DNA of 20,499 bases from a virus: the IMG/VR virus record IMGVR_UViG_3300001589_000268, positions 1 to 20,499 of that record. One strand, written 5' to 3'. This document shows, piece after piece, positions 2,841-19,264 of the stretch (position 1 is its first letter; each line of letters starts with the position of its first letter). The notes under the pieces are model-generated. The model made no database searches. It had not been told where the DNA came from and saw only the letters and a program-made list of their open reading frames with translations. Made by a program: the position numbers and the translations under genes.

Positions 2841-5546
2841 GTGCCAAAACGCTTATACCAAATAAAAGATTTTTCAGGAGGATTAAATAATCTAAAAGAT
2901 CCTGCCGACATAGCAGATAATGAAGTTGCAGAAGTTTCTAATTTAACCTTTACTAAACAAGGTGCAATTGGTGGTGCATTTAATATGAAGGATGCTACAA
3001 ACAATTTATTATCTGCTTACGACACATCGCATATAGACCACATAGAAGCTGGATATGGACTAGGATATTTTGAAACAGACTTTGTTCGTGATGGAGTAAC
3101 TTTATCTGTATCTACATCAGATCAGAATGATAGTCAGTGGGGTTGGAAAGGCTTTAATAAAACACTACAGTTAAAAGTTAATAATAGTGTAGTGAATTTA
3201 ACTACTAGTTATCCGGTTGGTACAAGATTACTAATTACTGCTCCAATATTTCCATCTGATTCCATATCGCCAGACAATCAAGGTTTATTTACTGTTATTG
3301 GACATAGTGGAAATAATTTACTTGTAGATGGTGAACTTTTAGATAGTAGTGTAGCTGAAGATGATGAAGTATATTGGGCGGCTACAGTAAAGGGATTTGG
3401 AACTGGTGATAAAATATTACTTTTAACACATCCCGATGAACATAAGATAGATGTTTACTCTACAAATAATAGCGTTTTAACAGTAGATGATTTAACCCCT
3501 ACTCCATCAGCTGGATGGCAAGCAAGTCAAAGTCACACAGGAGCTACTGGAACATCTAATCTTTCAGGTTCTGGATTAACTTGCAGTGTAGCTACTGACG
3601 GTTCTGGAAATCCTACTTTTACAATAACTTTAGTCGGGACTGGATATGTAGTAGATGAAGAAATAACATTTATAGACCCCGGTAGCTCTACAAATACTGC
3701 TGTTCTTGTTGTGGCTTCTGTGAATAACTGGGAGTTAGATAGCATCACACTTAGATCATCTGCTACTGGTGTAAATTCTAAAGTGCTGTATCATAAAATA
3801 GATGACTCTATTAGGTGTTTTGATACTGCTGATAAAAATAATTGCAAAGTACAGTGGTATGGATGGATAAATAGAAGACATTTTTATGGGGGAAATAGTA
3901 CAACCGATGATAATTCTTATTTAGGATATTTTGCAAAAGATAATACGTTATTACCTCCAACTGAAGATGATTTAACTTCAGCATCAACTGCCACCCCCTC
4001 TAACTTTACAACTTACCCCGCTTCGGCTGGTACTGGATTTGAATTAAATGTTATATCTCATACAGATGTTGAGGGGTTAATACCTTCAGGTGTTTATGAA
4101 TTTGCATCAACTTTTATTTATGATAAAAATCAGGAGTCTTTGCCTTTCGCATACACAAATACTCATACAATATCTGATGCTAATGATTTTAAAGTATTGT
4201 CTTTGAATGTGTCAACTAAATCTCCTTACGACCCTAGAATATCAGGTGGTAGAATATATGTAAGAGAAGTTGGTTCTGATGATGAGTACATAATGCTTAT
4301 AGATATTGATTTAACAAAAGGCTGTAGGACTAATTTTTCTGATAATTATACACCTTGGCATGACGCTGGTAGTTCTCAATTTAATTGCCCAACTGCAACA
4401 GCTTCTGCAAATTTTGAAGTAAAAGACTTTGGATTTATTACTTATGAAACTATCAATGGATTTGCATCTAGTATATTTAGTAATGCATTAGGTGATCAAG
4501 GTGAGTTTTGGAAAGATTCTACTGTAGCCAATAATAGAGTATTTATATGTAATGTAACAATGAAAGATGAAGATTCGGGAACTGATAAATCTACGGCAAC
4601 TGTTAAAAATTACCCTGATAGAATTATGTATTCTATGCCAAATAGATTTGACACATTCCCTTCTTTTAACTTTATAGAAGCAGCTAAGGGTGATGCTGAC
4701 TATTATACAGCTATAGAATCATTTGCAGATAGGATATTAGCATACAAGCAATACAGTTTAGATATTATAAATATAGCGAGTCCTAGTGATGCTAACTGGT
4801 TCTTAGAAGACAGTAAGAACTATATGGGTATAGAGTTTCATGGTGCAGTTGCTAAGACTCAATATGGTATTGCATGGGTAAATAAACAAGGTTTGTATTT
4901 TTATGATGGTTCTAAGATAAGAGACTTATCAGAGAATAAAATAGATGATGATACGTGGTATAGCTTTGTAACAGTAAACTCTATGATAATATATGATGAG
5001 GCAACTAATTTAATTTACGTAGTAAAGAATTGCTCTAGTGATGGCGATGCATATTTATATGATTTAAAAAAAGGTAACTTTACATACCTTAAAGATTTTA
5101 CACATGATGGTATTACAAATGTAGTACACACTAATTTTTCAGATAGTACTAATGCTTTAGTGGGTACAGATGCTGGATCTTCTACTAGATTTTATAAACT
5201 ACATAGAGATTTTCAAGCTGTATCAAACGTATTATATCAGTCAAAAGACTTTGATTTTGGGAATGCAGCAAAAGTAAAAAAAATATATGCAGTATATGTT
5301 ACTTATAGGTCTAATGTAGAATTAGCTGATATGTTTTCGCTAGTAGAAGATGATGGTAATGAACATGATTTAAATGGAGCAGTTCCAGTAAGTGCAACTA
5401 ATTATAAAACTGTTAAGTTAAATATACAAGCTGTAGAATTATGTAATAAAGTTTCAGTTAAGTTAAATACTGCTTCAACATCAGCTAGAGTAGAAATAAA
5501 TGATATAAGTATTGAGTATAGAGAAATACATAAAAGATCTGGCTAA
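2841..5546 (+). CDS. large tail protein, beta-propeller / stabilisation-like (901 aa)
   Basis: The start is GTG, directly after the preceding TAA and with a GGGGAAAG SD. The N-terminus has the pattern FSGGLNN...IADNE...SNLTFTKQGAIGG (about residues 10-46), common at the start of podovirus tail hub, 'stabilisation' and related proteins. Residues about 600-720 carry blade-like segments, including AWVNKQGLYFYDGSKI and a following LSENKI, as in beta-propeller tail proteins. The middle holds an inserted Gly/Thr-rich segment (about residues 234-296, with a VGTGYVVDEEITF motif), the type of small beta domain seen in many phage tail and baseplate proteins. Ser/Thr/Asn/Asp-rich composition with few Cys fits an extracellular virion part. 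It probably sits at the portal-tail junction or tail hub. The family assignment is moderate; a virion role is quite likely. Confidence 0.65.
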   Translation: MPKRLYQIKDFSGGLNNLKDPADIADNEVAEVSNLTFTKQGAIGGAFNMKDATNNLLSAYDTSHIDHIEAGYGLGYFETDFVRDGVTLSVSTSDQNDSQWGWKGFNKTLQLKVNNSVVNLTTSYPVGTRLLITAPIFPSDSISPDNQGLFTVIGHSGNNLLVDGELLDSSVAEDDEVYWAATVKGFGTGDKILLLTHPDEHKIDVYSTNNSVLTVDDLTPTPSAGWQASQSHTGATGTSNLSGSGLTCSVATDGSGNPTFTITLVGTGYVVDEEITFIDPGSSTNTAVLVVASVNNWELDSITLRSSATGVNSKVLYHKIDDSIRCFDTADKNNCKVQWYGWINRRHFYGGNSTTDDNSYLGYFAKDNTLLPPTEDDLTSASTATPSNFTTYPASAGTGFELNVISHTDVEGLIPSGVYEFASTFIYDKNQESLPFAYTNTHTISDANDFKVLSLNVSTKSPYDPRISGGRIYVREVGSDDEYIMLIDIDLTKGCRTNFSDNYTPWHDAGSSQFNCPTATASANFEVKDFGFITYETINGFASSIFSNALGDQGEFWKDSTVANNRVFICNVTMKDEDSGTDKSTATVKNYPDRIMYSMPNRFDTFPSFNFIEAAKGDADYYTAIESFADRILAYKQYSLDIINIASPSDANWFLEDSKNYMGIEFHGAVAKTQYGIAWVNKQGLYFYDGSKIRDLSENKIDDDTWYSFVTVNSMIIYDEATNLIYVVKNCSSDGDAYLYDLKKGNFTYLKDFTHDGITNVVHTNFSDSTNALVGTDAGSSTRFYKLHRDFQAVSNVLYQSKDFDFGNAAKVKKIYAVYVTYRSNVELADMFSLVEDDGNEHDLNGAVPVSATNYKTVKLNIQAVELCNKVSVKLNTASTSARVEINDISIEYREIHKRSG

Positions 5547-6256
5547 TGATTAGAGAAGCAAGAAGAACACAAAACTCTAAACAAGATAAGATACAGGTAG
5601 TTAAGTCACAACCATCTGTTAATTCACTTAGAGAAGGACAAGAAGCTATATATTTATCTAAGTCTAACAGACTAGAAAGATATAGAAAAGAAAAAGGTAG
5701 GTTATGGGTATCTTATATGTATCCAACACAAGATAAAACAATAGATAGAGATTTAATTATTGGCAGGGATATTGTATCTAAAAATAAAAGGATAGATCCT
5801 ACAAAACTTGGTGTATTTTACCAAAAAATATATGACGATGATACTACAGCTACTTTAGCTAGTTCGAACACTAATTTTGCTAACACAGATAATGCTAAAG
5901 ATATGTTTGAAAATTTACCTTCAGGTACTTACATATTTATATTATCAGCAAATGTCGAAGTTAGTGCAGATAATGTTGAAGGTATTTTAAAAGTAAGATT
6001 TCACGATGCTAATACCAGTATAACCAATCCATCTGATTTAGTAGGTTCATTAAGAATACATACAGGTACGGATACTACAGCTTATGACGCTGGTGATGGT
6101 ACAGATTCTTTACAGTTTATGGTTGATATGCAAATTTTAACTTTAACGCAAAATAAAGATATACACATGCAGTATAAAAGGCAAGCTGGTAGTGCTAGTG
6201 GGACTGTTACATTCAGTGATATTAATTTAATTGCAATATTAATAGGTGGAAGTTAA
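5546..6256 (+). CDS. tail-associated protein with beta-rich C-terminal domain (236 aa)
   Basis: The ATG shares its A with the preceding TAA (TAATG), so it is translationally coupled to the tail gene. The N-terminal part (about 1-90) is charged and holds VNSLREGQEAIYLSKSNRL, followed by RYRKEKGRLWV. I recall such segments as virion-anchoring regions in short phage fibre and capsid-associated proteins. The remainder (about 90-236) is Thr/Asn/Asp-rich with alternating hydrophobics, reading like a C1q/TNF-style or jelly-roll trimer domain; its end is hydrophobic (LIAILIGGS), as is common for such domains. It may be a short fibre or a host-contact decoration. The evidence is pattern-level only. 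Confidence 0.55.
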   Translation: MIREARRTQNSKQDKIQVVKSQPSVNSLREGQEAIYLSKSNRLERYRKEKGRLWVSYMYPTQDKTIDRDLIIGRDIVSKNKRIDPTKLGVFYQKIYDDDTTATLASSNTNFANTDNAKDMFENLPSGTYIFILSANVEVSADNVEGILKVRFHDANTSITNPSDLVGSLRIHTGTDTTAYDAGDGTDSLQFMVDMQILTLTQNKDIHMQYKRQAGSASGTVTFSDINLIAILIGGS

Positions 6257-6309
6257 TAATACTGTGTGCGTTATAACCTATTTATTGTTAAATTCAAAGG
6301 AATTTTAAA
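6257..6309 (+). promoter_or_regulatory. 53-base gap, possible late promoter and SD
   Basis: This is the only real gap among the large + strand genes. It contains TGCGTTATAACC (about 6267-6280), which has a -10-like TATAAC, but no convincing -35 element stands at 16-18 bases upstream. An AAAGGAA SD (about 6297-6303) precedes the ATG at 6310. No hairpin with a U tract is evident. A separate promoter for the ejection-protein genes is possible but unproven. Confidence 0.25.
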
Positions 6310-7596
6310 ATGAACAATCCAAATAATTTATTAAACATGATGCAGACTGGTGGACAAGCTAGTTCTGCTGGTGGTACTTCGCTTATAAGAGCTTTGCAAA
6401 GACGAAGCGATATGAAAAAGTTAGAAAGGCAACAAAAGAAGGAAGCTAGAAGACAAAAGAGAGGTGGTTTGTTTGGTAGTCTCGGTAGTATTGCTGGCGG
6501 TTTATTGGGAGCGGCACTTGCTCCTGCTACAGGCGGTGCTAGTTTAGCTTTGTTTTCAGGGCTTGGGTCAGCGGCAGGTAAAAGAGTTGGAGAGGGTTTA
6601 GGAGCTGGAAAATCTAAGAGTTATGATAGTTCAGGTACAGTTTATGGACAGCAATCTTTTAAAGACCTAGACCAAGCTAGTAGTGATTATACTAGAGGTA
6701 TGGGTGAAAGAGCTTTAGTCTCTGGTCTTCAAACGGCTTTAACTGCTGGTTTAAGTCCTAGTGGTGGTATATATGGTAAAGTAGGCGGAAAACTCAGGAC
6801 ATTGCCGGGAAGTGGTAGTGCTGTAGGGGCAGTAACAAGTTCTGCAATTCCAACTGCAAGTACGAAGGGGTTAGAAGCTATGGAATCTTTCTTAAGTCAA
6901 GTAGATACAAGCGGAAACCCAGTACCTTTACCATTTGGTAGTAAACCTAATTTTGTAGGTAGTAGTTTTTTAACTTCTCCTAATCTTTCTACAGCATCAA
7001 CAGCCTCTACTGACTCTTATTTTGATCCCTCTTCACTGTCTCCCTATTTAAGTAATTATGAAGATGGCGGTTTAGCGGCTTATCAAACTGGAGGTTTTAC
7101 AGCTTCTAGTATTTTAAAACAACAAGGTTTAGATCCAACGCAAGATCAATTAATGCAATTCCAAGCTTTTGACCCTACACAAATACAGCAAGCTAAAACA
7201 GGTGCAGAGCAAAGTTTAATGTCTATGACTGGTGGTATGGGACTATCTAGTGCTGGCGGTGGATTTGGTGCTAAACAAAGAGCGGCAACTTCCGCTATAG
7301 GAGCAGGGCAAGATTTAATTGGTGATACTACTGAGCAAGCACAAAGATCTTTTGAATCACAAACATTAGGTACTGCTGCTGACTTGATAAATCAAGAAGT
7401 AGAGTTTAAAGAGCTTGCTGCTAATCAACAAGACTTTGGGCAGTTATATGGAGTAGATACTAACAATGAAGAAGATATGTTAAGATTAAATGAGATGTTA
7501 CAAACAAAAGTTTTTGGTCTTAACGAGACTACAATAAATGGAAATCTTCATGTTTGGGATGATAGTTTAGATCCACCACAATATAGACCGGCTTAA
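6310..7596 (+). CDS. probable internal virion (ejection) protein A, 428 aa
   Basis: The start has a good SD (AAAGGAA, 7-8 bases). Residues 1-51 are polar, ending in a Lys/Arg/Gln-rich helix. Residues about 52-101 are Gly/Ala/Leu-rich and could insert in membrane (GLLGAALAPATGGASLALF). The rest is Gly/Ser/Thr/Ala/Gln-rich with low-complexity segments and no Cys. This composition, and its place as the first of three consecutive long helical or flexible genes after the tail genes, fits the small internal or ejection proteins of podoviruses (for example P22 gp7-type or T7 gp14-type), which form part of the periplasm-spanning DNA conduit. No direct family motif is recognised; the call is from composition and position. 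Confidence 0.5.
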   Translation: MNNPNNLLNMMQTGGQASSAGGTSLIRALQRRSDMKKLERQQKKEARRQKRGGLFGSLGSIAGGLLGAALAPATGGASLALFSGLGSAAGKRVGEGLGAGKSKSYDSSGTVYGQQSFKDLDQASSDYTRGMGERALVSGLQTALTAGLSPSGGIYGKVGGKLRTLPGSGSAVGAVTSSAIPTASTKGLEAMESFLSQVDTSGNPVPLPFGSKPNFVGSSFLTSPNLSTASTASTDSYFDPSSLSPYLSNYEDGGLAAYQTGGFTASSILKQQGLDPTQDQLMQFQAFDPTQIQQAKTGAEQSLMSMTGGMGLSSAGGGFGAKQRAATSAIGAGQDLIGDTTEQAQRSFESQTLGTAADLINQEVEFKELAANQQDFGQLYGVDTNNEEDMLRLNEMLQTKVFGLNETTINGNLHVWDDSLDPPQYRPA

Positions 7597-7598
7597 TC

Positions 7599-9278
7599 AT
7601 GGCTAGGAGAAGAAGTATATACAGTAATAGGCAAGCACAAGCTCCGGGTTCTTATGAGACTCCATTAGCGGATTTTCTTGATGCATTACCGCAGTATGTA
7701 AATCAATATCAACAGAATAAATTACAAGAACAGCGTTATAATGACGCTCAAAAATTAGCTAGTGACCAAAGAGAATTAGAGCAAACTAGATATGATTCAG
7801 CTTTAAAAAGACAGGAAGATAAAGATACTAGAGATAACTATAATAAGATAATAGATGGTACACCTAAATTTGATTATAAGACTAGAAAAACAATCGCTGG
7901 GACATTTGGTTTTGATGATGAAGTAAAAACTTACGACGAACTTATCAATACTCAAGGTGAATCAATGACTCAATTAAGGTCAAAGATAAGTGATATACAG
8001 AACTTACCGCCTGAATCTACTTTTTATCAATTTGATGATTTGGTAAGTGACATTGACCCTAAATCTAGGGAAATGTTAAAAGAAACAGATAGTCGTGCCT
8101 ATGGATTATTATTAAGTGCTGAGCAAAAATTTGATCAACAAAGGTTGACTAATATGAGAGCTATGCCAACTCAAATAAAAACTGAGTTAGCAAGTGCAAA
8201 CAGTCAAAAGTCTTACATTGAAAGAGAGATGATAAAAGTAGCTCAAAAAATGCCTAGTATTGACACTGACAATAAAACTGCTCAGGAAATATTAAAAGCT
8301 TTAAGGGCAACTGGCGTAGACCCAACTGGTGAATTAAGATCATTAAAAGGTCAATTAACAACATTTGAAAATACAATAGACACTATTAATAACGATTATT
8401 CAATTAAAAGACCAGTAAATGAATTACCGGGTAAGAAAGTTCCACCGTCAATAACGCAAGATGGTGTTTCAATCCCTACTTATGATGTTGATGCTTTATA
8501 TGATTCTGAACAATTATTAGCTAATACAGCTCCAAAAAGCCCTAGTGAGGCAGAGCAAAGCCTTGATCTTCAAGAAGCACGATATATTATGGCTACTGAG
8601 CCTGAAGGTTCTCCAGAATACAAATCAGCAATGGATTCTTTAAATATATTAGAATCTAAACCGTTGCCCGGCTTAGGCGGTTTAATAGAAAGACTTAGTG
8701 TTGCGGGGCAAGAAAGGGCAGAAACTGGTGAAGGTATAAGAGGTATTAGACCTGAATCTAGAGTGTTTGATTTACCTCCAGTAGAAGATCCGACAGACCT
8801 TAAATACGTTGATAGGGTTCTTAGTCAATTTGATAGAAAGTTATCACAATTAAAAACATTAGCTTTAAGACCTGAACAATATCGAGGTTCTGGTGCTTCT
8901 GACAAGGTTAATCAAATAAATGCAAACTTAAAAACTAAAGATAATTTAATATCTCAAATAAAAGAATTATATAATAAAATGCCTAAGACTAAGAAATTTG
9001 AAAAGCAGTTAAAGTCAATAAAATCTATTATTCAAGACAATCCAACTGGTTTAGAAGCATTTTTAGATAGTAAAGCCAGAAAAGGTAAAGGAGAGTTTAA
9101 ATTTAAAAAAGGTAAAGTATCTGAAGAAGATAAAGTATTATTAGCAGAATTAAATAGTATATTAAATTTTGAAAACAGAGAAGAGCCAGACAATAAAAAT
9201 GCTTTAAGGGATTTATTACTGGGTATTGTACCGGGCGGAACTACTATGGCTTCACCAATACCGATTCCACAAGATTAA
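7599..9278 (+). CDS. probable internal virion / ejection protein B, 559 aa
   Basis: The ATG comes two bases after the preceding stop with only a weak SD, so coupling is likely. The N-terminus is basic (MARRRS), followed by a Gln/Glu/Asp/Lys-rich helical region (about 35-90) and further helical segments to the end, with many Lys/Asp/Leu heptads. There is no TM segment and no Cys cluster. A middle stretch (about residues 285-385) is Pro/Glu/Ser-rich. The length, helicity and position between a Gly/Ala-rich membrane-active protein and a giant protein match the middle partner of a three-protein ejection set (compare T7 gp14-gp15-gp16). Its function is inferred from this arrangement; the sequence itself is not recognised. 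Confidence 0.5.
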   Translation: MARRRSIYSNRQAQAPGSYETPLADFLDALPQYVNQYQQNKLQEQRYNDAQKLASDQRELEQTRYDSALKRQEDKDTRDNYNKIIDGTPKFDYKTRKTIAGTFGFDDEVKTYDELINTQGESMTQLRSKISDIQNLPPESTFYQFDDLVSDIDPKSREMLKETDSRAYGLLLSAEQKFDQQRLTNMRAMPTQIKTELASANSQKSYIEREMIKVAQKMPSIDTDNKTAQEILKALRATGVDPTGELRSLKGQLTTFENTIDTINNDYSIKRPVNELPGKKVPPSITQDGVSIPTYDVDALYDSEQLLANTAPKSPSEAEQSLDLQEARYIMATEPEGSPEYKSAMDSLNILESKPLPGLGGLIERLSVAGQERAETGEGIRGIRPESRVFDLPPVEDPTDLKYVDRVLSQFDRKLSQLKTLALRPEQYRGSGASDKVNQINANLKTKDNLISQIKELYNKMPKTKKFEKQLKSIKSIIQDNPTGLEAFLDSKARKGKGEFKFKKGKVSEEDKVLLAELNSILNFENREEPDNKNALRDLLLGIVPGGTTMASPIPIPQD

Positions 9279-9284
9279 TGTGGT

Positions 9285-12200
9285 ATGCCCGAATCAACTA
9301 AAAGATATAATTATTTTAGCGACTATATAGACAACTTATCTGACGATGGGTTAGACGATGCATCTGTAGCTAATGTGCAAACCAATGGTGATTACTTAGA
9401 TCAAAAATCAAATTTTGATAATAACTTATACGACCCTCAGTCTTATTATGATGCTCTGTTAGAAAAGAATAACGAACAAAAAGTATCAAAAGAAGATGGT
9501 GATTTATATGGGTTTATTCCCGGTGAGTGGTTGCCAGATTGGGTAAAAGCTGGGTATCAAAATAGTATTACAGGTGCAGCAGATAAAATTTTGACTGGAG
9601 AAGATAGGTTTGATTTGTCAAATTACTCTCCGGGTATGATGGAAGATGTTGGTGCTACTTTAATATCTTTATTTCAACCCTTAGACGCTATAACCTTCGC
9701 AGCTTCTGGTGGAGTTGGTGCAATTGCAGCTAAATCTGCTACAAAATTAGCAATTAAAAAAGCTTTACAATCTGGAGTTGGTAGAGGTGTTCGTGTTAGT
9801 GATGATTTAGTTAAGTCAGTTCTAGGTGATAATGTTCTTTTGAGTAGTGGATTAACTCGTGCTAGAAAAGGCATTGGAGGGGCATTTAGAGCAACAACGA
9901 ATCCGCTAAATGAGGCAAAAAGAAGATTAACGCTTCAAGGTATTTCAGCAAAGAAGGCTAATGATATTATAGAAAAAGCTGCACCTAAAGTATTAAATCA
10001 AGCATTTCAAGCAGCGGCAGTTGGTGGTACACAGTTTGGGTTTTATAGTGGTTTGCAGTCTAGCTTAGGACAGATTGCTGACCCTGATCAGGAGTTTGAT
10101 TTGCTAATGAATATAAAGAACGCATCAAAAGGTGCAGTCTTAGGTTCTGTTACAGCTGGTTCTGCTCCTATTGTTAAATCTTTTTTAAGTCCAAACTTAA
10201 ATAAACTAACTCAACAATTAGCTGTAAAAGCAGTAGAGACGGCTGAGTTTGGTACACTTGCTCCTATTATGGAAGGTGAACTCCCTACCGCTGAGGATTA
10301 TGTTCATTCAGCAGCAGTTATCGGTGCTTTAAATGCTCAAAAATATGCTACAGGTAAGATTACAAAAGGATATAGGAAGATCAGGGATGCTAAAAAAGAA
10401 ATTGGACTTACCGTTGAGGAGGGAGCACAATTTTACGGAGCTTTAAAATCAGCTGAATTTGAAGCGAATCAAGTGTATACAGACAGGAATGGCTTTAAAG
10501 TAAACAATGTTAAACTAGACACTAGAGAAAAAACTGTTGAAAAGACTAATATTGAGACTGGTGTAGAGAAAAGAGTAATAAAAGAAGATATCGTAACTTT
10601 TAAAGATTTAAAAACGAGTGAGTTGTTAGAACCTATAACTTTTTCTGAGTTTCAAAGTAGAGGGTTTAGTAGAAGTGGTGGTAAGTACACCCCAGAAGCA
10701 TTACAGAAAAAAAGGATAGATTCTATATTTGGCATTAAAAAAGAAATTAATATGAACGATGCTAACTTTCTTGATAGAGCTAGTAAAATATTAAAAACAG
10801 AATTACGAGACACGAATATAAATAAAGTTGTTAGTAGTATGACTCCTGTTCAGCAACTAAAACTACAGCATAGAATGAGAAAAGAAGCGGTTGTAAATAA
10901 ACTTAGAACCGAAATAAAGAAAAGCGGTTGGGAAACAACAATGATGCCTGATAAGCTTTTTTCTGATTATCATGGTTTAAAATTTTTAGATAGAGCTGGA
11001 AAAAGATTGCAAACTCAAATAAGTGGAGACGCTAAAAAAAGAGTTGATAATTATAATGTTGATTATTTTAGCTATATGGGAACTCTTAGTCAGATGTATA
11101 ATGATATTGGTTTATACGCAAAAGGAATGGTGGGTTATAAAGAATCTATATCAAAGTTTACAAAAGAAAAATTATTTAAAGAGACCAAAGATAAATTAGA
11201 GCAAGAATCTATTGAGATAGGAAGAAAACTACAAAACCCTAAATATGCAAATGATCCTGTAATTAAACAATATAGGGAAATCTTTGATTATATGTGGGAA
11301 GAAGCAAAGAAAGCTGGTGTAGATTTAGGTAAAAAAGAAGAATGGTATTTTCCTCGCATTGTAAAACAGGATGTCTTAAAAATATTTTCTCAAGATTTTG
11401 GTAAGCTTAGAGCTGAAAACCCTCAATTATTTACCGAAACCTCTTTGTATAGAAATTCTAATTTTCAAAAAGTTATTGGTGAAATCGTCGAAAAAGGTAA
11501 GGTTTCTAAAGAAACAAGAGATGTTTTGTATGAAATGGCTGGTATAAGAAAAGATTTATCAAGGGAGCAAGTGCCTGATTTTGACATTAAAATATCGGGT
11601 GCATTTAGAAAGTTAAATACGACTACGAATGTCCAATATCATAATGTTGCAGAGCATTTACAAATATCTAGAAAGGCTAAAGATTTACCAGAATCTATTT
11701 TAGAAACAGACGCTAGAATTGTTATGTCAAAGTACGGTCATCAGTGGGCTAGGAAAGTTGCTGAGTCAAAAAACTTTGGAAATAGTGGTGAATTTTGGGT
11801 AGCATCAAGAGATGTTTTAAATAAAGCAATTAAAGTATCTGATTCTGGCAGTAAAAGAAAAAAAGTATTAACCGAAGAGCGTGATGTATTAGATAATATG
11901 TATAAAATATTAACTAATAAGATAGAATTAGACCCTTCTCATAACTGGAAAAGTCCACAAGCTAAGAAAGTGTGGAGTGATATAGTTGATTTTGAAATTG
12001 GTTCTAAGATAGGATTAGGCTTTGCTACAGTTCCTAATATAACTCAGGTTGCTATATCCACAGCTTTAAAAACTGGTTACTATCCAATTATAAAAGGTAT
12101 ATATAAGCTTTCTACATCAAAAGAATACAGAGATTTAGTTGGAAAATCTGGCGTTAGTAATATATCTATCTACCAATCATTAGCTGGTTTAAGACCTAAT

Positions 12201-13292
12201 GACTCCAATATGGGTAAGTTTGCTGAATTTACAACTTGGGCTTCAGGATTTCAAAAAATGAATCAGATAAACCAATTAGTATCTGCTGCTGCTGCTAAAG
12301 AATGGGTGGGTATGTTACAACCAATAGCACAAGGAAAGGGAACTGGTAAGTTTAAGACTCGTCAAAATTGGGCTAGAGAAAACTTAAGAGAATTAGGAAT
12401 AAGTAATATAAATAATATATCTGAAACTCAAATATCTAAATCTATGTATAGATTTGCAAGAGATACTCAATTACAAAGGAACATACTTGAAGAACCATTA
12501 ATATTTAATGACCCAAGATTTAGACCTTTATTTTTATTTAAAAAATTTGGATATAAGCAGTTTAATTGGGTTAGAGGAGCTCTAGGTTCTGAATTAAAAA
12601 GAGGTAATATATTTCCAATGTTAAGATTGGCTTCTGCTGGATTATTTGGCGGTGAGTTTGTTTCATTTGCTCGTGATAAGCTTGCTACTTTTTATGCTGG
12701 AGAAGAAGTGTTTAACGAAAATGAATACTTTTTAAATTTTGGAAATCTAAAAGATGTTGCTTTTGGAGATAAGAAAATTGACTCTTTAATAAGTGCTGAT
12801 CGAATGACTTGGGGTGATGCTCTAGATAGGTTTGCCTCAGTAGGTGCTATGGGAATATCTATGGATATAGTAGCTGCTGAGAATACAATAAGAGCTATAG
12901 AGTTTGCAGGTAAACCAGCCGTAGTGCAGGATTTTGATAAGATATGGCAAACAATGACTAGAACTTGGGAAAATCTTGGAGAGTATGGATCTTTAGGAGC
13001 GTTGCAAAGAATGCCTAAGTATCTAGCCCCACTTTTCGGAACTGTACCTAGACGCTTAGCCCAAAGAATAGAACCATCGGGTCAAAAAGAAAGCTATGTA
13101 AAATACAGAAAAGGTTTTACTCGCTCAAAAATATTAGATTACATGATTGAAGGAGATTCTATAAGAGCGACAAGGCTTGTAAAGAACTGGAATAGGTCTT
13201 TTCCTCAGAATCCGATACTATACGATGATATAGGTGTTGACGACATAACAAAAAGAATACTAAGGAAAGCAAAGAAAAAGCTAAAACCTTAA
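9285..13292 (+). CDS. giant internal virion / polyvalent-type protein, 1335 aa
   Basis: This is the largest gene in the window. Its order is an acidic N-terminus (about 1-80) with GEWLPDWVKAG near 85; a first hydrophobic block (about 112-160, LISLFQPLDAITFAASGG); a second Ala/Gly-rich block (about 236-305); a long charged helical middle (about 350-900); then hydrophobic segments near 906-942 and 1107-1139; and a basic C-terminus. The C-terminal 400 residues, with segments such as PLFLFKKFGYKQFNW and an aromatic tail, resemble the membrane-active ends of giant 'polyvalent' or ejection proteins of podoviruses (LPD-type domains). I see no clear lytic transglycosylase Glu motif. The ATG at 9285 is preferred, since an ATG at 9278 opens only seven codons. 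The SD is weak. Role: ejected with the DNA, probably into the cell membrane or periplasm. Confidence 0.6.
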   Translation: MPESTKRYNYFSDYIDNLSDDGLDDASVANVQTNGDYLDQKSNFDNNLYDPQSYYDALLEKNNEQKVSKEDGDLYGFIPGEWLPDWVKAGYQNSITGAADKILTGEDRFDLSNYSPGMMEDVGATLISLFQPLDAITFAASGGVGAIAAKSATKLAIKKALQSGVGRGVRVSDDLVKSVLGDNVLLSSGLTRARKGIGGAFRATTNPLNEAKRRLTLQGISAKKANDIIEKAAPKVLNQAFQAAAVGGTQFGFYSGLQSSLGQIADPDQEFDLLMNIKNASKGAVLGSVTAGSAPIVKSFLSPNLNKLTQQLAVKAVETAEFGTLAPIMEGELPTAEDYVHSAAVIGALNAQKYATGKITKGYRKIRDAKKEIGLTVEEGAQFYGALKSAEFEANQVYTDRNGFKVNNVKLDTREKTVEKTNIETGVEKRVIKEDIVTFKDLKTSELLEPITFSEFQSRGFSRSGGKYTPEALQKKRIDSIFGIKKEINMNDANFLDRASKILKTELRDTNINKVVSSMTPVQQLKLQHRMRKEAVVNKLRTEIKKSGWETTMMPDKLFSDYHGLKFLDRAGKRLQTQISGDAKKRVDNYNVDYFSYMGTLSQMYNDIGLYAKGMVGYKESISKFTKEKLFKETKDKLEQESIEIGRKLQNPKYANDPVIKQYREIFDYMWEEAKKAGVDLGKKEEWYFPRIVKQDVLKIFSQDFGKLRAENPQLFTETSLYRNSNFQKVIGEIVEKGKVSKETRDVLYEMAGIRKDLSREQVPDFDIKISGAFRKLNTTTNVQYHNVAEHLQISRKAKDLPESILETDARIVMSKYGHQWARKVAESKNFGNSGEFWVASRDVLNKAIKVSDSGSKRKKVLTEERDVLDNMYKILTNKIELDPSHNWKSPQAKKVWSDIVDFEIGSKIGLGFATVPNITQVAISTALKTGYYPIIKGIYKLSTSKEYRDLVGKSGVSNISIYQSLAGLRPNDSNMGKFAEFTTWASGFQKMNQINQLVSAAAAKEWVGMLQPIAQGKGTGKFKTRQNWARENLRELGISNINNISETQISKSMYRFARDTQLQRNILEEPLIFNDPRFRPLFLFKKFGYKQFNWVRGALGSELKRGNIFPMLRLASAGLFGGEFVSFARDKLATFYAGEEVFNENEYFLNFGNLKDVAFGDKKIDSLISADRMTWGDALDRFASVGAMGISMDIVAAENTIRAIEFAGKPAVVQDFDKIWQTMTRTWENLGEYGSLGALQRMPKYLAPLFGTVPRRLAQRIEPSGQKESYVKYRKGFTRSKILDYMIEGDSIRATRLVKNWNRSFPQNPILYDDIGVDDITKRILRKAKKKLKP

Positions 13293-13796: not shown

Positions 13797-13830
13797 TAAA
13801 GAAAAAAAGTACCTCTATAATCACGTTTAT

Positions 13831-13865
13831 AGCGATATTATTATCTTTTTGATATAAGTATCGCT
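13831..13865. repeat. imperfect palindrome / hairpin upstream of 13796 gene
   Basis: AGCGATA (13831-13837) is matched by TATCGCT (13859-13865); inside, further complementary bases can pair with two single-base bulges, leaving an A/T-only loop, about 14 pairs in all. It lies 35-70 bases upstream of the 13796 start and about 20 bases beyond the terminator hairpin on the - strand. There is no U tract directly after it on either strand, so it is more likely an operator, an mRNA-stabilising stem or a processing site than a second terminator. Confidence 0.4.
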
Positions 13866-13886
13866 TAATATTAATATAAAAAATAA

Positions 13887-13902
13887 AGGGGCGTTAGCCC
13901 CT
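13887..13902 (-). terminator. intrinsic terminator, - strand
   Basis: The - strand reads AGGGGC-TAAC-GCCCCT followed by TTTATTTTTTATA, i.e. a perfect 6-bp GC-rich stem with a 4-base loop and a U-rich tract (13886 down to about 13873). It lies 25 bases past the stop of the 70-aa gene (13928). This is the clearest Rho-independent terminator in the window. Confidence 0.85.
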
Positions 13903-13927
13903 CTATTCTCTATTAAGTTAAAAAAGC

Positions 13928-14140: not shown

Positions 14141-14159
14141 GCTGATTCTCCTTTATTAT

Positions 14160-14241
14160 GAGATGGTCTACCTTATCTTGATTCGCCAATCAATTTCAAA
14201 TGAACCATTTATTTTCATTTCCTTATAAAGCAAACCATCTC
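14160..14241 (-). repeat. 8-bp inverted repeat with 66-base spacing in 5' UTR
   Basis: GAGATGGT (14160-14167) and ACCATCTC (14234-14241) are perfect inverted copies, separated by 66 bases, in the gap between the stop at 14259 and the start at 14140. In transcript sense the leader begins GAGATGGT after an eight-T run and ends ACCATCTC 12 bases before the AGGAGA SD. A 16-codon ORF (14218 to 14168, - strand) fits inside the loop and ends exactly at the second arm. The same spacing occurs at 16614-16699. Confidence 0.45.
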
Positions 14242-14258
14242 TCTTGTTAAAAAAAATA

Positions 14259-14519: not shown

Positions 14520-14968
14520 ATTAATACTCCCTCTGATAGTTCTTTTATTTTATTACTCCATAGATATATATCTTTTTTCTTTACTAGGTAAGCTTGCTTA
14601 CTAATCGTGTCTCCCTTACCAATAAATTCTACTAAGTTATAATCTTCGCTTTTAACTAATTCTTTTAATCTTTTTAATTTTATCCATACTAATTCTATAT
14701 CATTCAAATGAAAAACCCACCAGTCAGCAGTGCTTGTCTCTAAACCTGATGGTCTATTATTCATTTCTACTTCTATTACTACGTTTCCAGTATACTGTGA
14801 TTTAAAATCTTTTTTTACTTCTACTGTTTTATTTATTTCAGGTATCATTATATCATATTCTTTATGATAACCTTCTTTAAGAAAGGCTTTAGGGTACTTC
14901 TTTTTAATTATATCTAGCACAAGGTTCTCTGACTTTTGACCACTAGTTAATGATTCTTGAAAACCCAT
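14516..14968 (-). CDS. PD-(D/E)XK family nuclease (150 aa)
   Basis: The N-terminal half shows the order of a PD-(D/E)XK core: Glu14 in GQKSENLVLDI, Asp39 in EYDIMIP, then Glu50-x-Lys52 in TVEVKKDF. This is the usual helix Glu, strand Asp, strand E-x-K arrangement. ETSTADWWVF (near residues 77-86) is also typical for the back half of small phage and restriction-type nucleases of this fold. The length of 150 residues fits a compact resolvase or repair endonuclease. It is coupled to the upstream gene by TAATG. Its role is probably cleavage of branched or damaged DNA in the recombination operon; the exact substrate is unknown. Confidence 0.7.
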   Translation of the reverse strand: MGFQESLTSGQKSENLVLDIIKKKYPKAFLKEGYHKEYDIMIPEINKTVEVKKDFKSQYTGNVVIEVEMNNRPSGLETSTADWWVFHLNDIELVWIKLKRLKELVKSEDYNLVEFIGKGDTISKQAYLVKKKDIYLWSNKIKELSEGVLI

Positions 14969-15444
14969 TAGAATGGTACTTCTGCTTTACTCTGTAATTG
15001 GATTGCTCTACCTACTGAGTATGATATCTGAGAATCAAAATCATTTGTAAACTTTTTAGTAAATACATCTACCAATACAACTGAACCTTTTATATCGCTG
15101 AGGTATAGGAAAGGTAGTTGCCCACCTTCCCCATCCTCTTTGCGGAGACCCATAAGGGACAAAAACTTAGCAAAGCCCCAGTTTTTACTGTGGTCGTAAA
15201 GTGCATCACCAACCTTTTTATATCTAAAAATGCCATTATCTATTACCTTGCAACCATCGTAAGGGGGATGATCTTTTTTGTCGATAGTATACTCAGGTTT
15301 AAATACGTCAGCAATAAAATTACCAAACTTGACATTCTCAGATATAGAAAGGTCTGTAATTGTAGTAATGTACCTACCTTTAGGCACAGAACCGTTATCG
15401 TCATCCAAAGAACTTGGATAATAAGCATCCCCTAATTCAGCCAT
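14968..15444 (-). CDS. probable ssDNA-binding-like / recombination-associated protein (158 aa)
   Basis: The start follows the preceding stop directly (TAG-ATG). The protein is beta-rich and acidic, with an N-terminal YITTITDLSI strand (near 25-34), a Tyr/Asp-rich middle, FAKFLSLMGL near residues 90-99, and a C-terminal strand region. The order and size recall phage single-strand binding or DUF669-type proteins, which also carry a repeated 'basic strand, then F-x-x-FL-x-x-LGL' element and lie next to nucleases. The match is loose. Its place between two nuclease genes supports an ssDNA role, but I did not find a diagnostic motif. Confidence 0.45.
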   Translation of the reverse strand: MAELGDAYYPSSLDDDNGSVPKGRYITTITDLSISENVKFGNFIADVFKPEYTIDKKDHPPYDGCKVIDNGIFRYKKVGDALYDHSKNWGFAKFLSLMGLRKEDGEGGQLPFLYLSDIKGSVVLVDVFTKKFTNDFDSQISYSVGRAIQLQSKAEVPF

Positions 15445-15861
15445 CTAAACTTTCTTTAGCTCTGTAATCCTATCAAGACATGCACCAAGATTATCTGTAG
15501 TAATCTTACCATCTCTAAGTCTAGCCATAACGATGTTCTTATTCTTTCTATCAAGACCAATAACCGCTTTCTCTATCTGTTCAGTAACATATTTATCTGT
15601 ATCAATCTCTTTACCATCGAACTTTTCTTTTACTTCTTCAACAGTTTCTTCAGCAGTCATTGGTTTACTATTAGCTTCTGCATGCTCACCTAATATCTCC
15701 TTGATACCATCATAACCATGTATTACAAACTGTACCCACTTTTCCATAGTCTTCATGTTATCAGCATTAAGTTCCATACCATTGCTAAAGGCTTCTACAG
15801 CAATACCATGCCTTATCTTGCCTTCTGTTATCTTATCCCAATCGGGTTGTTTATCGCTCAT
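15445..15861 (-). CDS. conserved phage operon protein with Glu/Lys-rich C-terminus (138 aa)
   Basis: The start at 15861 overlaps the stop of the upstream nuclease (ATGA) and has an AAGGAA SD 7 bases upstream; an upstream ATG would put 12 extra residues inside the nuclease gene. The N-terminus has WDKITEGKIRHGIAVEAF (near residues 8-25), a block I have seen in phage proteins that neighbour Cas4-like nucleases and ssDNA-binding proteins. The middle is acidic (about 55-95), and the C-terminus (about 95-138) is mixed, ending in LKKV. There are no catalytic residues. A recombination or replication accessory role is inferred from the neighbours only. Confidence 0.6.
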   Translation of the reverse strand: MSDKQPDWDKITEGKIRHGIAVEAFSNGMELNADNMKTMEKWVQFVIHGYDGIKEILGEHAEANSKPMTAEETVEEVKEKFDGKEIDTDKYVTEQIEKAVIGLDRKNKNIVMARLRDGKITTDNLGACLDRITELKKV

Positions 15862-16586
15862 AGGTCGTTTCCTTTCTCTTTTAATCCACCACCACATACT
15901 TCATAGAAGTTGCAGTACTTGATATTACATTCCCATTTATATACTGGGGCAACACCAAGCTCTATAGGTGGGTTTCCTTTTTTAAACATCTCTTTTACAT
16001 TATACCAGTATTCTTTTGCCATTTCAATATAGGATATAGGTATAATCTTTTCTCTCATTCTTGAATTATCTTTGTTATAATATAGTAACGCAAGCTTTTC
16101 TATTTTGTTCCCCGAATCTTCTTCATACCACCAAGCGTATGTACCAAGTTGTAAAAAGTAATTAGTAGCGGGGTTTGGATCAGGATTTCTACCAAATAGA
16201 CCTTTCCACTTCCAAGCATTGCATGTCTTTATGTCAATCATTGCCCCATCTTTAATTAAAAGTAAGTCAAAAAATCCCCTTACATTAACGTCAGGTAATT
16301 GTATCTCTCTTTCCATCATTACTTGAGCACCAGTTTTATCCGCATAATCTCTTACTGCTTCTTGTATATCTCCATGAACTAAGTCACCCAATCTAAATAA
16401 CCTCATAGTATCTTCATTTACTGGCTTAGGCTTTACCCCTGCTACATGTTGAAAATAGTGTTTACGCATACACATTCCTGATGCAGATGCATGAAACCAT
16501 TTTTCCTGACCTTGATACCTTTTCTTGTAATGCATATCATTATTCTCAAGTAACCACTCATCGTATATTTTCTGTACATCTATCAT
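15858..16586 (-). CDS. Cas4-like Fe-S PD-(D/E)XK nuclease (242 aa)
   Basis: From ATG 16586 (AAAAGGAAATAAT just upstream) the 242 residues show the full Cas4/RecB-nuclease pattern: Cys39 (MCMRKHYF), His71 in GDLVHGDIQE, Asp107 in VRGFFDLLL, Asp118-x-Lys120 in MIDIKT, an aromatic Gln motif (YFLQLGTYAWWY), and three C-terminal Cys at 220, 225 and 231. One early Cys and three late Cys are the usual ligands of the [4Fe-4S] cluster in this family. Role: probably ssDNA/dsDNA end resection in phage recombination. An open extension upstream through the structured gap starts at a TTG at 16682 with no SD, so I reject it. No CRISPR array or cas1/cas2 is in the window. Confidence 0.88.
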   Translation of the reverse strand: MIDVQKIYDEWLLENNDMHYKKRYQGQEKWFHASASGMCMRKHYFQHVAGVKPKPVNEDTMRLFRLGDLVHGDIQEAVRDYADKTGAQVMMEREIQLPDVNVRGFFDLLLIKDGAMIDIKTCNAWKWKGLFGRNPDPNPATNYFLQLGTYAWWYEEDSGNKIEKLALLYYNKDNSRMREKIIPISYIEMAKEYWYNVKEMFKKGNPPIELGVAPVYKWECNIKYCNFYEVCGGGLKEKGNDL

Positions 16587-16613
16587 ATTATTTCCTTTTG
16601 GTATGTGAATAGA

Positions 16614-16699
16614 AGAGAGGGCAATAAGAACATGACGTTTCTTGATAGTGTGATTGGAAAACAAGAAGGATTTACAAACCAATCAAATATGCCCTCTCT
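16614..16699 (-). other. structured intergenic element, candidate 5' UTR RNA
   Basis: AGAGAGGGCA (16614-16623) and TGCCCTCTCT (16690-16699) are perfect 10-bp inverted copies, separated by 66 bases. Between them sit two more pairings: TGATTGG (16651-16657) with CCAATCA (16679-16685), and AAGAA (16626-16630) with TTCTT (16639-16643). Together they can fold as a three-way junction in the leader of the Cas4-like gene. It starts 8 bases past the stop at 16708 and ends 27 bases before the 16586 start. I know of no family name for it; it could also be a non-coding RNA or a processing site. Confidence 0.5.
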
Positions 16700-16707
16700 A
16701 TATTTCA

Positions 16708-16887
16708 TTACAGCCTAACTATTTCTTTATTTTTAGAATAAAGATTTATTTCTATCTCTTGATTATCTTGAGTAGTAACAACCAAAGTTTTATAGTATTG
16801 TGTATATGCTTTCTCTGTTTTTGCTACCTTAATAGATTTAATATCATATATACTAATCTCTTGCCCTTGACCTAATTGTAGGTTCAT
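16708..16887 (-). CDS. 59-aa small beta-rich protein, unknown
   Basis: I start this at ATG 16887 because AAGGAG lies 5-6 bases upstream and the ATG overlaps the preceding stop (ATGA). An ATG at 16920 would add 11 residues but would overlap the previous gene much more. The product has alternating hydrophobic and polar residues (EISIYDIKSIKVA, then TLVVTTQ and IEINLYS), typical of a small beta barrel or SH3-like fold; there is no catalytic motif. It is the last gene before the structured gap and the Cas4-like nuclease. Function unknown. Confidence 0.6.
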   Translation of the reverse strand: MNLQLGQGQEISIYDIKSIKVAKTEKAYTQYYKTLVVTTQDNQEIEINLYSKNKEIVRL

Positions 16888-17096: not shown

Positions 17097-17226
17097 TATC
17101 ATTCTCCATTTCATATATATCAGCTACATCGTATTCCTTACCAGTGTTTGGATCATAAGTAATGTATGTTACTACTTTACGCTCTCCGTTATATCCCTGA
17201 TACTCTTTCTTTACTTTTAATCTCAT
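17077..17226 (-). CDS. 49-aa small protein, unknown
   Basis: An ORF from ATG 17226 to TAA 17077 fills the otherwise empty gap after the HNH gene. The SD (GGAGCGAG) lies about 10 bases upstream, in the HNH gene's end. The product begins MRLKVKKEYQGYNGERKVV, has a TYDPNTGKEYDV turn (near residues 23-34) and ends in an acidic/Asn stretch; it reads as a beta-hairpin-like mini-protein. It overlaps the next gene by 20 bases, in keeping with the packing of the block. It could easily be missed by length cut-offs. Confidence 0.55.
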   Translation of the reverse strand: MRLKVKKEYQGYNGERKVVTYITYDPNTGKEYDVADIYEMENDNVYNIK

Positions 17227-17232
17227 ATACTA

Positions 17233-17739
17233 TTAACTCGCTCCTTTACTATTTGTTCCGTTATTATTTATTATTTCTTCCATATCACTATAATAATTAT
17301 TTTCTTTCCAAGTTCTCTTCTTGTGGCAGTTACGACATCTTATTTCGCACTTCTCTATTTCCTCTTGAACTGTTTGCCACTTATAGCCATGTCTAATTAA
17401 ATAAGAAACGCCCTCAGAACCTTTATATCCAACTCTTTTTTTAACACCTCTAACATGGTCAAACTCCAAGACTTGAATATCTTTTTCTCCGCAATCAACA
17501 CATCCATTTACAAAGTATTCTTCAACAACTCTTTTATAATTGTTATGTCTTCTTTTAAACTTATTACGTTTAACCATTTTAATTTGATGATTACGCATAC
17601 TGGGATACCATTCCTTATTGTGGTAATCATGTTGACATGCCCTGCACTGATATTGCAAGCCATCTTTCTTTGCTTTATTCTTATTGTATTTCCATTTGAA
17701 TTTATATTTCTTACAACGACTACATTTCTTAACAAGCAT
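17233..17739 (-). CDS. HNH endonuclease with two zinc sites (168 aa)
   Basis: The N-terminal zinc knuckle is Cys6-x2-Cys9 with Cys32-x2-Cys35. The catalytic half has Cys80-x2-Cys83, the EFDH step with Asp94-His95, and a C-terminal Cys135-x2-Cys138 adjoining His139 (CRNCHKKRT). This is the treble-clef HNH fold with structural zinc, as in free-standing phage homing endonucleases. The middle (about 45-70) is strongly basic and would help DNA binding. The SD is GAGGA 4 bases before ATG 17739. It is inserted between small genes without disturbing the operon. A homing role is the common interpretation; a nicking or packaging role is less likely because no terminase is near. Confidence 0.85.
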   Translation of the reverse strand: MLVKKCSRCKKYKFKWKYNKNKAKKDGLQYQCRACQHDYHNKEWYPSMRNHQIKMVKRNKFKRRHNNYKRVVEEYFVNGCVDCGEKDIQVLEFDHVRGVKKRVGYKGSEGVSYLIRHGYKWQTVQEEIEKCEIRCRNCHKKRTWKENNYYSDMEEIINNNGTNSKGAS

Positions 17740-19064: not shown

Positions 19065-19207
19065 TACATCTCCTCTACTTTTATTGTAGGGTGTAAATCA
19101 TCAATCATGTAATGCTCTTTATAATGAGTAACTTCTTTCAACGCCTTCTCTTTATTCTTTGCTCGGACATATCCATTTACTTCTATTGTGTAATAAAATT
19201 CCTTCAT
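19064..19207 (-). CDS. 47-aa small protein, unknown
   Basis: The ORF runs from ATG 19207 to TAA 19066-19064, and the stop overlaps the start of the RuvC-like gene (TAATG). A strong SD (AAGGAGAGATT) is 4-6 bases upstream. The product begins MKEFYYTIEVNGYVRAKN and continues into an amphipathic helix (KEKALKEVTHYKEHY), so it looks like a small alpha-beta protein. It is not recognised. Upstream in the 57-base gap there is a weak 5-bp A/T hairpin (19239-19251) and nothing else of note. Confidence 0.65.
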   Translation of the reverse strand: MKEFYYTIEVNGYVRAKNKEKALKEVTHYKEHYMIDDLHPTIKVEEM

Positions 19208-19264
19208 AATCTCTCCTTGTTTCTTATTATACGTCTGTACTTTTTAAAAGTTCCAAATTAATTT

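Follow-up and report, generated by a model that had tools for sequence, protein, structure and literature searches.

In an uncultured group of marine phages, the leader preceding a Cas4-like nuclease gene contains a structured RNA, which probably controls expression of the nuclease operon. That the RNA is structured, belongs to the sense strand of the operon and is located in cis is in our view near-certain. As judged from aligned sequences, its consensus consists of two nested helices, P1 and P2, and a single internal loop, long and asymmetric, on the 3' side. The analysis started from a window of 20,499 nucleotides, which is the whole stretch of DNA studied here (IMG/VR record IMGVR_UViG_3300001589_000268). 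In agreement with the initial annotation, the element sits in a gap of 121 bases upstream of the Cas4-like gene. This gap constitutes the leader (16587-16707, minus strand), which extends between the start of the Cas4-like gene at 16586 and the end of a small gene at 16708. The features, all on the minus strand, are as follows, in the order in which they would be transcribed:

16708..16887, minus strand: small gene lying before the leader; 59-70 aa, according to which start is used
16690..16699, minus strand: P1 5' arm, RNA AGAGAGGGCA, with compensatory changes
16679..16685, minus strand: P2 5' arm, RNA UGAUUGG; two-sided changes in 6/6 modelled P2 pairs
16658..16678, minus strand: L2, U-rich apical loop of 21 nt, UUUGUAAAUCCUUCUUGUUUU
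16651..16657, minus strand: P2 3' arm, RNA CCAAUCA
16624..16650, minus strand: J2, single-stranded, 27 nt, forming the 3' side of the internal loop
16630-16639, minus strand: AACGUCAUGU within J2, which takes the place of CAACUACAC of the sister clades
16614..16623, minus strand: P1 3' arm, RNA UGCCCUCUCU
16593..16607, minus strand: linker with Shine-Dalgarno segment, CACAUACCAAAAGGA; most relatives share it
15858..16586, minus strand: Cas4-like (RecB-type, PD-(D/E)XK) nuclease gene, 242 aa, the first gene past the leader
15445..15858, minus strand: operon gene 2, no assigned function
14968..15444, minus strand: operon gene 3, predicted OB-fold, SSB/DUF669-like, 158 aa

A gene for an HNH endonuclease is found near the leader (17233-17739, minus strand; phrog_2255, 5.4e-24). 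Further gaps of 118-200 bases are present in the minus-strand block (13797-13927, 14141-14258, 17115-17232 and 19065-19264), and these are devoid of G+C-rich stems of at least 9 bp. On the plus strand, the large proteins of the structural block (2841-13292) yielded no PHROG match at E 0.01. A plus-strand ORF of 28 codons (16632-16718), which by eye resembled a lysozyme fragment, was discarded, as PHROGs returned nothing and the antisense frames of eight relatives held no conserved ORF.

P1 is a perfect 10-bp inverted pair, exactly as first noted (AGAGAGGGCA at 16614-16623 and TGCCCTCTCT at 16690-16699), and it represents the sole stem in the window with at least 9 bp and at least four G/C per arm. 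The minimum-energy fold of the minus-strand leader comprises P1 with 10 bp, P2 with 7 bp and a mini-hairpin of 5 bp (-27.4 kcal/mol; z -2.87; 2/200 shuffles equally stable). Thus, both inner pairs proposed in the initial annotation form in this fold, but only the 7-bp pair is conserved. The third pair (AAGAA/TTCTT) is located in a loop whose bases do not pair in the consensus drawn from 46 copies, and the proposed three-way junction was therefore dropped. Likewise, the statement that the stem is too long for chance was overstated as far as the stem alone is concerned: a stem of at least 10 bp occurred in 23/2000 dinucleotide shuffles of the gap, and 4/20 shuffles of the whole window contained one stem of at least 10 bp having at least six G-C pairs. 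P1 by itself is only modestly improbable, that is, its length is uncommon yet possible by chance. It is the comparative evidence rather than stem length that establishes the element as real.

For comparison, we assembled 86 sources consisting of the window, 63 viral loci matched by the 242-aa Cas4-like protein, 21 further viral contigs matched by the alignment of this protein (80 of 142 relatives being retained), and one contig from a metagenome-assembled genome (MAG). A covariance model built from 15 copies, from which the window had been left out, detected the element directly before the Cas4-like gene in 55 of the 86 sources (E < 1e-4), including the window itself with an E-value of 4e-8. 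The remaining 31 sources comprise three without a readable leader (L034, L041, L053), locus L047, and 27 distant relatives with at most 64% protein identity, which carry no such exact element directly before their cas4-like gene. In L047 (3895-4005), P1 is kept and the interior is replaced by different hairpins (E 0.27). Inspection by eye revealed that locus L043 keeps the RNA even though the small upstream gene is absent, indicating that the element travels with the downstream gene. The MAG contig (L144; DKQR01000126.1), which is binned to Ca. Marinimicrobia UBA7303, has both the element and the gene and may provide a hint to the host or reflect a binning error. One relative encodes a P22-type portal and an SU10-type capsid protein. 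Among 50,697 phage records, there was no match to the tested proteins and no related phage isolate.

Scanning of viral contigs for the J2 core combined with the P1 3' arm returned 32 stretches, 27 of which correspond to this locus. The other five were judged chance hits, as the element was not visible by eye. A search for extra copies in 20 records gave further matches with E-values of 0.0018 or worse; two of these represent the same site on the opposite strand, and the others are weak and lie elsewhere.

The initial annotation had proposed to look for compensatory changes in the homologous gaps of related phages, and the relatives indeed show them. We aligned 46 of the 55 matches, leaving out nine near-identical copies and retaining 42 distinct sequences. 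In this alignment, 93.0% of the 645 paired cells can pair, and two-sided changes are observed in 14/16 pairs. The covariation score amounts to 0.521 as compared to 0.231 in shuffles (0/500 as high) and 0.048-0.133 for slid pairings. Some rows of the alignment have P2 out of register, so that pairing of P2 is understated in these values. For the ten pairs of P1, one parsimony reconstruction on the protein tree counts 25 double compensatory changes and six breaks, together with 28 single changes that convert one standard pair into another. In the 46 individual sequences, P1 measures 8-14 bp and P2 5-10 bp, whereas the unpaired parts range from 0-7 nt (J1) and 11-23 nt (L2) to 17-38 nt (J2), as determined with a stem finder allowing G.U and one mismatch per helix (P1 and P2 of L038 were set by hand). 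Covariation and the presence in 55/86 sources speak for a functional RNA structure within the leader preceding the Cas4-like gene.

To which strand the structure belongs is undecidable from folding alone, because both strands of the leader fold well (z -2.87 and, for the plus strand, z -3.01), and minimum energies do not separate them either, the sense strand being lower in 21/42 cases. However, when read on the strand of the gene, the helices contain 33 internal G.U and no internal A.C juxtapositions, as counted with a stem finder that accepts G.U and penalizes mismatches. This bias favours the gene-sense strand, that is, the mRNA.

Conservation extends to unpaired sequence. The J2 core CAACUACAC has nine positions, whose conservation in 18 representatives outside the clade of the window ranges from 78% to 100% (0.94 or above for 7/9), as compared to 41% identity at four-fold degenerate codon sites. 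In the window's clade, AACGUCAUGU is present at the place of the J2 core in 3/4 representatives. Neither AACGUCAUGU nor CAACUACAC is found in L043, whose protein is 90% identical to that of the window. L2 overall is conserved no better than four-fold codon sites. A stretch of the form ACAUAC-AAAGGA before the start codon is also conserved among relatives, and inspection by eye of the window and 14 fetched records showed it ahead of no other gene start. The Shine-Dalgarno sequence is left free in the fold, implying that repression would need an added factor. In 25 representatives, the complementarity of the Shine-Dalgarno segment to L2 or J2 did not exceed that of shuffles (mean z 0.04 and 0.71), and complementarity between L2 and J2 or between L2 and the leader, as would be expected for a pseudoknot of the usual kind, was no better than for shuffled loops. 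In the window, we found no terminator-like site and no excess of promoter-like sites.

The first gene of the operon encodes a PD-(D/E)XK nuclease (PDDEXK_1, 4.2e-10; phrog_1706, 8.3e-22). Ten residues are invariant in 24 relatives (C39, C220, C225, C231, H71, D107, D118, K120, Q146 and Y150), which we take to be the Cas4 cysteine cluster and the RecB-type motifs. The structural model of this protein (mean pLDDT 71.8) is nearest to Cas4 SSO0001, Cas4 of the Cas4-Cas1-Cas2 complex, MGME1 and RecE. The third gene is predicted to encode an OB-fold, SSB-like protein: its 158-aa product is modelled as a beta-barrel (pLDDT 82.3) that is nearest to PrgE and SSBs, with a best Z of 7.5 that lies within the unspecific range of the tool, and its viral matches include phage proteins named DUF669 or SSB. 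The protein (14968-15444) has no Pfam family and no PDB match at E < 0.001, and a sequence search of solved structures with the alignments of the two proteins gave no match for either.

Which function could such an element have? The reading we prefer, to which we give somewhat less than an even chance, is a cis-acting translational operator of the operon that would be bound by a phage or host protein. It is preferred because the conserved parts outside the helices are single-stranded and lie near the ribosome binding site, before genes of DNA metabolism, as in T4 genes 32 and 43. That is, the leader RNA would act in cis on the operon encoding the Cas4-like nuclease, the uncharacterized protein and the OB-fold SSB-like protein. 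The two helices, P1 with 8-14 bp and P2 with 5-10 bp, would form an interrupted hairpin, which may present the U-rich loop and the long single-stranded J2 just upstream of an accessible Shine-Dalgarno sequence. A protein could recognize the hairpin together with the J2 motif, thereby blocking or adjusting ribosome loading at the nearby start codon. First candidates for this protein are presumably the SSB-like protein of the operon or the Cas4-like nuclease, or otherwise another phage or host RNA-binding protein. The operator reading draws on the conserved structure, the sense strand, the fixed position and the conserved unpaired motif; points against it are that the J2 motif is not universal, that L2 is conserved no better than four-fold codon sites, that the OB-fold matches are weak and that the more distant relatives (27/86 sources) lack this exact element directly before cas4-like.

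The main rival, which is unlikely but has to be taken seriously, is an RNase III-type processing site or stabilizer of the mRNA 5' end of the kind known from the T7 early region, in which the hairpin, cut by RNase III or a similar enzyme, would give the operon its own stable 5' end. Phage T7 RNase III sites are interrupted hairpins in intercistronic gaps, and the present hairpin likewise resides between cistrons, within a block of densely packed genes, and offers ~15-23 paired bases in P1 and P2, interrupted by the asymmetric internal loop. However, this loop measures 17-38 nt, which is far larger than the loops of the T7 sites, and it contains conserved sequence, whereas a cutter of double strands needs no strong conservation in the unpaired J2.

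A ligand-sensing riboswitch governing translation of the operon appears improbable. It would fit a conserved unpaired core held in a helical frame near the ribosome binding site, and riboswitch-like RNAs do occur in marine phages according to passages in PMC2864571 and PMC9004378. Nonetheless, neither form of expression platform that was tested came to light, namely a terminator-like site in the window or an alternative pairing of L2 or J2 sequestering the Shine-Dalgarno sequence beyond shuffles in the 25 representatives. Moreover, the element precedes one nuclease gene rather than metabolic genes and has no Rfam match.

Even more doubtful is that the element is a small RNA or is released from the leader by cleavage to act in trans. 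The fold is compact and stable and the conserved unpaired J2 could serve as a pairing seed, but promoters and terminators are not in excess in the window, and a search of seven contigs for complements of the J2 core at other sites gave none longer than those of shuffled cores. The position of the element, which is tied to the start of the Cas4-like gene, additionally disfavours a separate small RNA. We consider it highly improbable that the element acts at the DNA level as a single-stranded hairpin, be it an origin, a primosome site or a recombination site; inverted repeats can act in DNA and genes for replication and recombination are adjacent, but the excess of G.U over A.C on the gene-sense strand and the fixed location of all 55 matches before a start codon and Shine-Dalgarno sequence argue against this idea. 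Finally, a chance inverted repeat, suggested by the stems of at least 10 bp in 23 of the 2000 gap shuffles, is refuted with virtual certainty by covariation and conservation over 46 copies.

Some distant relatives contain hairpins which, as judged from sequence, are candidates only for homology with the element of the window. A refined covariance model highlighted four weak candidates (L054, L055, L057 and L062; E 0.0021). In these loci, a stem of 14 bp encloses CCACAACUAC and lies upstream of the small gene found before cas4-like (3711-3795 in L054, L055 and L062; 2026-2110 in L057), and L059 and L060 appear by eye to possess a compensated version of this stem. Further weak matches to the leader model (E 0.001-0.024) were observed at position 2616 in L049, 2617 in L050, 2638 in L051 and 1384 in L119; according to the ORFs listed for L049, its match coincides with the start of an HNH endonuclease ORF. 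Five distant loci (L120, L130, L131, L132 and L133; about 2229-2602) share a hairpin in which ACGUCAUGU lies 5' of P2, and the same motif sits 3' of P2 in the window. Two-sided changes occur in 3/15 pairs of this hairpin, and 2/500 shuffles reached its covariation score. In the same five loci as well as in L052 and L056, a second long hairpin is present directly before the small gene preceding cas4-like; 100% of its cells pair, and only one pair shows a two-sided change. A more far-reaching and rather unlikely proposal is that the element of the window represents a new class of phage leader RNA, in which the Cas4-like nuclease or the SSB-like protein itself would recognize the conserved J2 loop, enabling the operon to sense free recombination protein or ssDNA. 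Across this uncultured marine phage lineage, the fold would have been kept while the motif was swapped (CAACUACAC to ACGUCAUGU) and the position within the operon shifted.

By the measure of Rfam, the RNA constitutes a new family of a known general kind, the structured leader RNA. Searches against Rfam 15 gave no match in the window and, at E <= 5, three weak matches in seven relatives (of 85 fetched), none of which came near the gathering score or fell at the site of the element on its strand. One of these, in L002, is to a microRNA model, is far below threshold and overlaps the leader on the opposite strand. No description of this RNA was found in the openly accessible literature that was searched. 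Well-supported structured leader RNAs beyond the model phages are few, and the present one combines strong covariation and a fixed context with the lack of an Rfam match. It provides a concrete candidate for an RNA that controls phage recombination genes after transcription, and it illustrates how the scaffold may stay while a recognized motif is swapped.

How does the element compare to known systems? The manA and wcaG motifs are structured leader RNAs occurring mainly in marine sequences, phages included, as described in parts of PMC2864571. In contrast to the present RNA, they are associated with different genes, and neither family was reported by our Rfam searches. Closer parallels are provided by phage T4, in which gp32 and gp43 regulate their own translation via leader structures, as outlined in sections of PMC3014915 and PMC535899. 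As in these cases, the gene for a nucleic-acid enzyme has a structured leader RNA immediately before its ribosome binding site. The gene 43 operators of T4 and RB69 resemble the element in that a simple helix exposes recognized unpaired bases, for which J2 provides a candidate, upstream of a gene of DNA metabolism. However, these hairpins comprise 16-18 nt (PMC3014915, in the portion concerned with this operator), whereas the element described here spans 86 nt and has two helices and a conserved internal loop. The gene 32 operator of T4 is characterized by a pseudoknot and UUAAA repeats, whereas the present RNA has a hairpin that is interrupted by a long internal loop on its 3' side, and its complementarity for a pseudoknot of the usual kind does not exceed that of shuffled loops in the 25 representatives. 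SegG neighbours the T4 gene 32 leader, as mentioned in a passage of PMC535899, and the HNH endonuclease gene near the leader in the window is reminiscent of this arrangement. Like the gene 32 operators of T4 and RB69, the element is part of a phage mRNA leader in which a folded portion comes first and a segment with less structure covers the ribosome binding site, and it may serve an operon with a single-stranded DNA-binding protein, the candidate here being the predicted SSB-like product of the third gene.
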